DNA from: Chlorobiaceae bacterium
Lineage (GTDB): Bacteria > Bacteroidota > Chlorobiia > Chlorobiales > Chlorobiaceae
Length of the DNA: 45,695 bases
NCBI GenBank assembly: GCA_013334925.1
Contig: JAAXWP010000017.1
Span: 1-45,695 of the forward strand
Reading direction: 5' to 3'
In this document: one piece after another, positions 43,750 through 45,695 of the stretch
How positions within the stretch are numbered: the stretch's first letter is position 1
How the letters are laid out: each line of letters opens with the position of its first letter
Notes under the pieces: model-generated
What the model saw: only the letters and a program-made list of their open reading frames with translations
Told to the model about the DNA's origin: nothing
Databases searched by the model: none
Translations under genes and position numbers: made by a program

Positions 43750-45447
43750 ATGGCGCGCCCGAAGAATGTAAAGCATATTTTTGTCACCGGCGGGGTGGTT
43801 TCATCCCTTGGAAAGGGCATCCTTTCCGCTTCACTTGGGTTTCTGCTCAAGTCCCGCGGACTGCGCGTCGCCATCCAGAAATACGACCCCTACATCAACG
43901 TCGATCCCGGTACCATGTCTCCTTATCAGCATGGTGAGGTCTATGTGACCGATGATGGAGCCGAAACCGATCTCGATCTCGGCCACTACGAGCGGTTCCT
44001 TGACGAGCCGACCTCGCAGGCCTCTAACCTGACGATGGGCAGAGTCTACAAGTCGGTGATTGACAAAGAGAGAAGAGGAGAGTATCTCGGCGGAACCGTG
44101 CAGGTCGTTCCTCACGTGATCGACGAGATCAAGGAGAAGATGAATGACCTGGCCAAGAACGGCAACCTGGATGTGCTTATCACGGAGATCGGCGGTACGA
44201 TCGGTGATATCGAGTCGCTTCCCTTTCTCGAGGCGATGCGTCAGCTCAAGCTCGAGCTTGGAGAACGCAACCTGCTGAACATTCACCTGACCTTCGTGCC
44301 GTACATCAAGGCGGCCTGTGAGCTGAAGACCAAGCCTACCCAGCACAGTGTCAAGATGCTGCTCGAGACCGGTATTCAGCCGGATATCCTGGTCTGCAGG
44401 AGCGAAAAACCGCTCTCCAAAGACATCAAGAACAAGGTTGGTCATTTCTGCAACGTCCACGATCAGGACGTTATCGGTCTGAACGACTGCGAGACCATTT
44501 ACGAAGTACCCCTTATTCTTCTCAAGGAGCAGCTCGATCAGCGGGTCATGAAGAAGCTGTCGCTGAAGAAGTTCAAGGAACCGAACCTCGATTACTGGCG
44601 CCAGTTCTGCGACAAGGTCAAGCATCCGAAAGATGGCGAGATCACGATCGGCATCTGCGGTAAATACACCGAGTACCCCGACGCCTACAAGTCGATCCTC
44701 GAGTCGTTCGTGCACGCCGGCGCGAGCAACGACGTCAAGGTTTCTGTGCGTCTCCTCAGGGCCGAGGATGCGGAGGATCCGAAGTTCGATATCGGCAAGG
44801 CGTTCGAAGGGGTCAGTGGACTGCTTGTCGCTCCCGGTTTCGGTGACCGTGGCATCGAAGGCAAGGTGCAGTTTATCAGGTATGCCAGGGAGAACAATAT
44901 TCCTTTCTTCGGGATTTGCCTCGGCATGCAGTGTGCGACCATCGAATTCGCAAGAAGCGTCTGCGGTCTGCAGGAGGCCAACTCGACCGAATTCAACAAG
45001 CGCACCCGCTACCCGGTCATCGACCTCATGGAGCACCAGAAGAAGGTCAAGGAGAAGGGCGGCACCATGCGTCTCGGCAGCTATCCCTGTATTCTCAAGG
45101 AGGATTCAAAGGCCTACGAGGTCTACAGGAAGTTCCTGATCAACGAGCGTCATCGTCACCGCTACGAGTTCAACAACCAGTACCGGAAGGCACTGGAAGA
45201 TAAGGGGATGCTCTTTTCCGGCACCTCACCGAACGGCGACCTCGTCGAGATCGTCGAGCTGAAAGATCATCGCTGGTTTGTGGCCGTACAGTTCCACCCG
45301 GAATACAAATCAAGGGTGCAGAAGGTTCATCCATTGTTCAGTGGTTTTGTCAATGCAGCCAAGGAGTACGCTCTGGGCAAGCGTCAGCTGTCGCTTGAGG
45401 TTGAGCTGCCAAGGCTGAGCGCCACGGAGATGGAGAACGCAAACTGA
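43750..45447 (+). CDS. pyrG: CTP synthase
   Basis: The 565-aa protein has the synthase domain start [17 protein letters not shown] (P-loop-like) and [20 protein letters not shown]. The class I glutamine amidotransferase domain has [10 protein letters not shown] (nucleophile Cys) and VQFHPEYKS (His, Glu). It makes CTP from UTP, glutamine and ATP. The end, [13 protein letters not shown], is typical for length. A strong terminator follows 28 nt after the stop. No ribosome site is clear. Confidence 0.97.
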
Positions 45448-45475: not shown

Positions 45476-45507
45476 GAGCGGCGCAGCAAGGCGCCGCTCT
45501 TTTTTTT
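45476..45507 (+). terminator. Strong terminator after pyrG
   Basis: GAGCGGCGC (45476-45484) pairs perfectly with GCGCCGCTC (45491-45499), loop AGCAAG, then eight T (45500-45507). Confidence 0.95.
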
Positions 45508-45531: not shown

Positions 45532-45617
45532 ATGGACTTTATGGACGGCATGGACGTGATGGACAAAGAGCCTGATTTCCTGTCCATTCAGTCCATAACG
45601 TCCATTTGGTCCATTTT
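45532..45617. repeat. Symmetric array of 9-nt repeats, four ATGGACNNN and four GTCCATNNN
   Basis: Four units ATGGACNNN start at 45532, 45541, 45550 and 45559. After a 14-nt spacer, four units GTCCATNNN start at 45582, 45591, 45600 and 45609. The left and right arrays are inverted copies of one hexamer with variable triplets, and could fold into a long imperfect stem. It lies directly after the pyrG terminator. Its extension beyond the window is not seen. Confidence 0.75.
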
Positions 45618-45695
45618 CTTCTCTTTTTTCAAGAAAAGTGAGGAAATAATTTGGAGGAAAGGGGTGAAGGTAGTACATTAGGAACCTTCACTTGA

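Follow-up and report, generated by a model that had tools for sequence, protein, structure and literature searches.

Introduction

Slippage is the usual explanation for short tandem arrays in bacterial spacers. REP sequences and REPINs are dispersed extragenic palindromic repeats that occur as inverted pairs; copies of the repeat flank the cognate RAYT (TnpA-REP) gene, and non-autonomous copies occur genome-wide. Four-helix proteins of the IVP/S23 type were first recognised from rRNA intervening sequences. The accessible portion of PMC4990558 describes their function as not known, quotes a pentameric ring for the Xanthomonas campestris IVP and records that tandem heptamers precede the ORF of the IVS-encoded S23p in Coxiella. 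Avd and PF05635 have been compared previously, according to the available part of PMC10053308. Passages of PMC4692102 describe GGGAATC heptamers in Xanthomonas, with about 180 dispersed intergenic arrays per genome and 70–75 inverted pairs near gene ends, and GGGGA(C/T)T heptamer arrays in Nostoc; both are discussed there as G-quadruplex formers, and those passages name no protein partner.

We analysed a mirrored array near the end of a 45,695-nt stretch of DNA (the window) from a green-sulfur-type genome, and compared it with these systems. As in REPIN/RAYT systems, the repeat is inverted, extragenic and scattered through the genome; unlike REPINs, its arms are tandem arrays with free triplets, its unit length varies with the protein, and that protein is an all-helical bundle in place of a Y1 nuclease. 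At gene-bearing loci it resembles 23S rRNA intervening sequences, hairpin elements with a four-helix IVP ORF that RNase III excises, but the arrays are intergenic (the window copy lies after pyrG) and outside the 23S rRNA gene, their units are of 9 nt, their proteins carry a suffix domain and most copies are gene-free. The heptamer (STRR-like) arrays of Xanthomonas and Nostoc differ in having a 7-nt unit, as against exactly 9 nt in the window array, although the IVP structure Xcc0516 likewise comes from X. campestris. The likeness to Avd of diversity-generating retroelements, which comprise a reverse transcriptase with template and variable repeats, is one of fold class, in a comparison that covered the protein fold alone; neither a template nor a variable repeat was noticed here. 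The protein domain names were already known, as were the Xanthomonas and Nostoc heptamer arrays (passages of PMC4692102) and the Coxiella heptamers (part of PMC4990558). No prior report of a link between such arrays and these four-helix proteins was found in the open-licence literature searched.

A mirrored array of 9-nt units beyond the pyrG terminator

The initial annotation described a mirror array with a strict 9-nt period, a constant hexamer, four units on each side and a 14-nt spacer. Pattern searches of the window reproduced these features at the exact positions, with ATGGAC starting at 45532, 45541, 45550 and 45559 and GTCCAT at 45582, 45591, 45600 and 45609 (Table 1). The triplets are TTT, GGC, GTG and AAA in the forward arm and TCA, AAC, TTG and TTT in the reverse arm, and the loop length of 14 nt assumes that the last triplet belongs to the array.

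Table 1. Positions in the window of the array and of the features next to it
Feature	Position	Strand	Evidence
Array, forward arm: four ATGGACNNN units	45532..45567	+	sequence, pattern matches
Array, loop, 14 nt	45568..45581	.	sequence; weakly paired or unpaired in folds
Array, reverse arm: four GTCCATNNN units (ATGGAC on the opposite strand)	45582..45617	-	sequence, pattern matches
pyrG intrinsic terminator, separate from the array and just upstream	45476..45507	+	terminator scan
pyrG, CTP synthase, upstream neighbour of the array	43750..45447	+	ORF; Pfam CTP_synth_N and GATase

The array lies near the window end, in the spacer after pyrG and past the pyrG terminator. That terminator, a stem at 45476–45499 followed by a T tail, is the sole scoring site in a terminator scan, which excludes the array itself as an intrinsic terminator and agrees with the original view that a separate one stands just before it. 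A CRISPR, discounted from the outset, is likewise excluded: the array consists of hexamers with 3-nt gaps and mirrored arms, and not of long identical repeats with long unique spacers. The suggestion of a structured element was borne out by folding, since the hairpin potential of the segment is strong both as RNA (z −5.5) and as DNA (z −6.5), with none of 200 shuffles equally good in either case. Rfam gave no match at gathering score in four orthologous stretches, and the window locus yielded sub-threshold matches only.

To the right of the array, the final 53 bases of the window (45643–45695) are found again 3′ of pyrG in a number of relatives, often close to the end of a contig. This recurrence suggests that a multi-copy element, for example an rRNA operon, adjoins the array on that side; the last 60 bases of the window had no match in four complete relatives.

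A dispersed hairpin family mainly between convergent genes

The genome from which the window comes (G000) holds about 30 hairpin arrays, and the stretches around these sites were examined. A three-unit pattern has 86 matches in this genome (51 forward, 35 reverse) and its backward reading has none, so the array is not a product of chance; the spreading repeat family that had been proposed is indeed dispersed. Opposed triplets were complementary in none of 45 pairs in the G000 arrays, with 1.5 expected from shuffling, and the hairpin is therefore essentially a series of 6-bp stems split by 3 × 3 internal loops. The triplets are non-random, with C rare at the first position on both arms. A second motif, GAATGTAAGA / TCTTACATTC, occurs in mirrored positions beside or inside the ATGGAC arrays at L135, L137, L148, L154, L156 and other loci of this genome.

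Runs of a single identical triplet in some arrays (L136, L150, L073) suggest slippage, and neutral tandem-repeat slippage with mirroring by chance might be offered for the whole family. Yet the order is forward then reverse in every one of 25 adjacent arm pairs, and the unit dialect is identical on both arms in 24 of them, which argues against this explanation; as a full account it is largely refuted, and we consider it barely credible.

The arrays sit directly after stop codons, mostly in convergent spacers. With genes called by a simple longest-ORF rule, 16 of 20 clean array spacers were convergent and four tandem, compared with 26 convergent among 151 other gene pairs (p=3e-8). Such placement fits two roles in the service of the host, which together form the main alternative to selfish spread. 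The first is regulatory: the four-helix protein described below would be an RNA-binding regulator, the arrays would be 3′-end sites that protect or terminate convergent transcripts, and the protein would regulate itself through its own arrays. The strong RNA fold and the run of at least five A or T in 9 of 25 loops accord with it, but an intrinsic terminator precedes the window array. The second is architectural: the arrays would serve as boundaries, nucleoid sites or sinks for supercoils in convergent spacers, bound by the four-helix protein in an architectural capacity; the strong convergent-spacer bias, the capacity of the arrays to form cruciforms and the many sites per genome all point that way.

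Array dialects and their distribution among relatives

Across 61 genomes (G000 and 60 relatives) the ATGGAC form was found in five, all in one genus, and a looser pattern, GGAC every 9 nt, in 21 of 41 genomes. Most members of this genus have the same hairpin design in other unit dialects; those found in the genus are ATGGAC, GTGGAC, A[AG]GGAC, T[AG]GGAC and CACGGAC, and several can coexist in one genome. The initial annotation would have been contradicted by a unique copy with an irregular period, and arrays instead recur in the relatives.

The orthologous locus of the window array was inspected in 14 genomes. ATGGAC or mixed AT/GT arrays occupy it in G000, G007, G013 and G018 and GTGGAC-type arrays in G009 and G019, with G015 cut by a contig end; a 10-nt CACGGAC array is present in G008 and its start in G006 (cut), and there is little or no array in G002, G004, G005, G014 and G017. 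A convergent gene pair at L150 behaves similarly, having ATGGAC arrays in G000 and G007, A[AG]GGAC arrays in G018 and G019, a short spacer in G004 and G005 and practically no spacer in G013 and G017. Orthologous sites that are empty, filled, or filled with a different dialect favour a selfish element; neither a transposition event nor a target duplication was seen.

Six species have one gene-flanking array in common, in which the proportion of differing comparisons was 6% for the GTCC core, 17% for the two dialect bases, 46% for the triplets (inflated by one species with shifted units) and 13% for the flank. With the shifted-unit species and a decayed copy in G011 set aside, the values for this single array became 26% for triplets, 3% for the core and 11% for the flank. 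In this one array the core is held and the triplets are free to vary, which accords with the selfish reading and also with either role in the service of the host. Against a regulatory role, however, stand sister species that differ in dialect or miss the array at the same gene, and arrays that persist in G000 and G005, where the TIGR04258 gene described below was undetectable even by direct protein search; we regard this role as unlikely. Patchy presence, both across the genus and per locus, several dialects per genome and arrays flanking the gene itself all fit a selfish element better than host architecture, which we judge more doubtful still. The arrays of G000 are orphans, either relics of recent gene loss or served by something else.

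A four-helix protein family associated with the arrays

A scan of species genomes for four ATGGAC units gave at least 113 stretches, and the groups among the matches listed include Chlamydiae, Lentisphaerae, Hydrogenedentota, Sumerlaeota, Cloacimonadota, Planctomycetes, Verrucomicrobia, BRC1 and others. Matches at L017, L019, L020, L040, L053, L112, L117 and L119 resemble ordinary simple or coding repeats; TIGR04258 was found in the genome of L040 and in none of the genomes of the other seven. The longest ATGGAC array seen (L015, 1635–1940) has 34 forward units with a few reverse units alongside.

Among the ORFs near the scan arrays, one family recurs at six loci from different groups, although the first nearest-gene clustering had mixed common families with this true lead. 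All five members tested matched TIGR02436 (four helix bundle) and TIGR04258 (4helix_suffix), with a weak match to PF05635 (23S rRNA intervening sequence protein). TIGR02436 was above cut-off at the gene-bearing loci tested, the window copy being gene-free.

TIGR04258 is present in 19 of 41 genomes, comprising 16 of the 18 array genomes among these relatives and 3 of the 23 others (p=1.2e-6), where an array genome has at least four matches, a cut set after the counts were known; within the window's family alone the corresponding figures are 16 of 18 and 3 of 7 (p=0.03). It also occurs in 31 of 50 genomes drawn from the ATGGAC scan. Two of these, G007 and G018, were already known, and in the 48 other-group genomes kept for comparison the median net array count was 110 with TIGR04258 (n=29) and 4 without it (n=19; p=4.5e-6). 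There are exceptions in both directions: G011, G021 and G022 have TIGR04258 but 0, 2 and 0 pattern matches, and five genomes (one Desulfomicrobium, Prosthecobacter, one Lentisphaeria and two Chlamydiae) have at least 20 net matches without it.

Arrays were detected at 35 of 58 suffix loci by a test of at least three GGAC units within 400 nt, and at the remaining 23 there were none. Those upstream of the suffix gene are mostly forward and those inside or downstream of it mostly reverse; in G007 a forward-loop-reverse hairpin lies 5′ of the gene and five reverse units 3′ of it, and in several phyla a reverse array lies inside the coding sequence, ahead of the suffix domain. Suffix gene loci are often common to close relatives, so the gene itself moves rarely. 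We are highly confident that the TIGR02436 and TIGR04258 family and the arrays are cognate partners.

At two loci, L260 (Oligosphaera ethanolica) and L262 (a Lentisphaeria genome), the suffix proteins have a zinc-ribbon-like tail and their genes are embedded in long stretches of GGAC arrays of mixed TG/TA/GG type. Pattern matches are most numerous in the O. ethanolica genome, which has 761.

Array dialect and protein clade

On a tree of 51 suffix proteins, 42 of them labelled with a dialect (eight rows had no label and one was 'other'), five dialect classes, T[AG]GGAC, A[AG]GGAC, [AG]TGGAC, TCGGAC and a GATCNG[AT]CN type, required 5 changes, compared with a mean of 24.0 and a minimum of 18 in 2000 shuffles. 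Duplicates (L268, L271), a protein with masked letters (L234) and proteins of less than 120 aa (L225, L229, L233, L243, L253, L264) were left out of the tree, as were columns filled in less than 60% of rows, and arrays inside the reading frame were used for the dialect label. Genomes outside the genus had been found through ATGGAC and their suffix genes picked regardless of dialect; the 23 proteins from other-phyla loci alone gave 5 changes, as against 12.1 when shuffled (lowest 8). Organism groups do not follow this protein tree, 19 of them requiring 26 changes, a pattern expected under horizontal transfer. Dialect tracks protein clade almost perfectly across phyla, a congruence that also counts against slippage. 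The one protein tested from the GATCNG[AT]CN-type clade has a DNA-binding zinc ribbon of the topoisomerase type.

Unit length and protein type

Because heptamers had been reported before the Coxiella S23p ORF, we examined IVP genes that lack the suffix. By a strict test, period 7 was found at 9 of 16 such loci in the genus and periods 5, 6 and 8–11 at none, whilst period 9 was found at 42 of 58 suffix loci. A fresh test used 19 IVP loci on plasmids of cyanobacteria and other bacteria, fetched from 43 listed, together with one suffix record. Strictly scored, these 19 loci gave period 7 in 12, periods 5, 6 and 8 once each and period 9 in none. The best autocorrelation period was 7 at 16 of the 19 plasmid loci (8 in two, with one tie) and at 14 of 15 IVP loci of the genus, from which L198 was excluded as its gene position was unset; it was 9 at 26 of 30 and 23 of 28 suffix loci. 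The only plasmid suffix gene, from Prevotella nigrescens, has period 9. Random controls reached equal autocorrelation strength in 0 of 300 window flank pairs and 0 of 300 transposase-locus pairs. The heptamers at cyanobacterial plasmid IVP genes are presumably the classical cyanobacterial STRRs.

Only at L229, L264 and L265, three suffix loci with a protein motif in common, do period-10 GGAC arrays of at least three units occur; none was found at L239, a neighbour of this group on the tree. Unit length therefore tracks protein type, being 9 nt with suffix proteins, 10 nt with one suffix clade and 7 nt with suffix-less IVPs, as confirmed on the separately sampled plasmids. Neither this rule nor the absence of such arrays from random controls is accommodated by slippage.

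The same results bear on the proposal that Y1 (RAYT) transposases, which the genus also has, mobilise the arrays as REP-type repeats. Y1_Tnp genes are present in 18 of 21 genus genomes, and several RAYT-like genes (L162, L163, L165, L168, L170, L172, L173 and L174) have inverted ends that begin with GGAC and end with GTCC, the core tetramer of the arrays, possibly by coincidence. Nevertheless, the stretches examined around G000 Y1 genes contain no array of at least four ATGGAC/GTCCAT hexamers, the presence of Y1 genes does not track that of arrays, and it is the four-helix proteins that dialect and unit length follow. Following a genus-wide Y1_Tnp search and inspection of the ends of 16 Y1 genes we rejected RAYT/REPIN as the driver, an origin that now seems very improbable.

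A candidate repeat-and-protein system

A suffix protein modelled with AlphaFold (mean pLDDT 89.6, pTM 0.83) consists of a four-helix bundle and a C-terminal helix. Structural comparison ranked the IVP Xcc0516 highest (Z 16.3), followed by an S23 protein (14.1) and by Avd within a DGR complex (12.4); since an unrelated helical protein scores 12.3, on a par with Avd, the Avd match alone is no proof of kinship. A PDB sequence search with the suffix protein returned chance matches only, and plain Foldseek gave nothing with E <0.001. We recognised in the suffix protein no nuclease or other catalytic domain that would explain copying.

Taken together, the arrays and their protein look like a repeat-and-protein system of an unrecognised kind, with nuclease-free, REPIN/RAYT-like working and an IVP/Avd-type protein, and we lean towards the window array being a non-autonomous copy of a selfish system of this sort. 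The complete unit is a TIGR02436 and TIGR04258 gene ringed by arrays, mostly forward upstream and reverse downstream or near the 3′ end. The protein, by analogy an oligomeric ring, may bind the folded-back strand with one contact per unit, so that its geometry would set the unit length. Because no nuclease domain was recognised, we propose that host replication or repair enzymes copy the hairpin to new sites with the protein's assistance; copies would persist chiefly between convergent genes, where insertion does least harm. DNA is favoured over RNA as the substrate because one clade has the topoisomerase-type zinc ribbon and because the window array lies past the pyrG terminator.

The interpretation of the array offered in the initial annotation is supported by these results. 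Its idea of a protein-binding array gains from the observation that the unit tracks the protein family, which points to a cognate binding protein; that the arrays are bound, and that they are mobile, we infer. That annotation could not have revealed the partner protein, the existence of dialects or the correspondence of unit length to protein type. In many phyla, protein type predicts unit length and clade predicts wording, a simple, testable rule that connects a protein family with a repeat class, both of them orphans. If the protein does spread or read the arrays, this would be a new kind of repeat-protein partnership.

More tentatively, and with rather less than even confidence, the whole IVP/S23/Avd-like four-helix superfamily may read and spread bacterial tandem hairpin arrays, protein type fixing the unit length (7 for IVP, 9 or 10 for suffix proteins) and clade fixing the wording. 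If true, this would provide one explanation for rRNA intervening sequences, for the Xanthomonas and cyanobacterial heptamer arrays and for the present arrays, and would define a class of mobile repeat without a nuclease of its own.

As a separate observation, plasmid IVP genes at L283, L286, L292, L295, L300 and L301 lie between defence-operon genes, the neighbours being cas6/cas4, cas10/cmr3, hsdS/hsdR, DUF1156/Swt1-HEPN and helicase/N6-methylase; IVP genes in cas loci are reported in the available part of an earlier study (PMC3936711).
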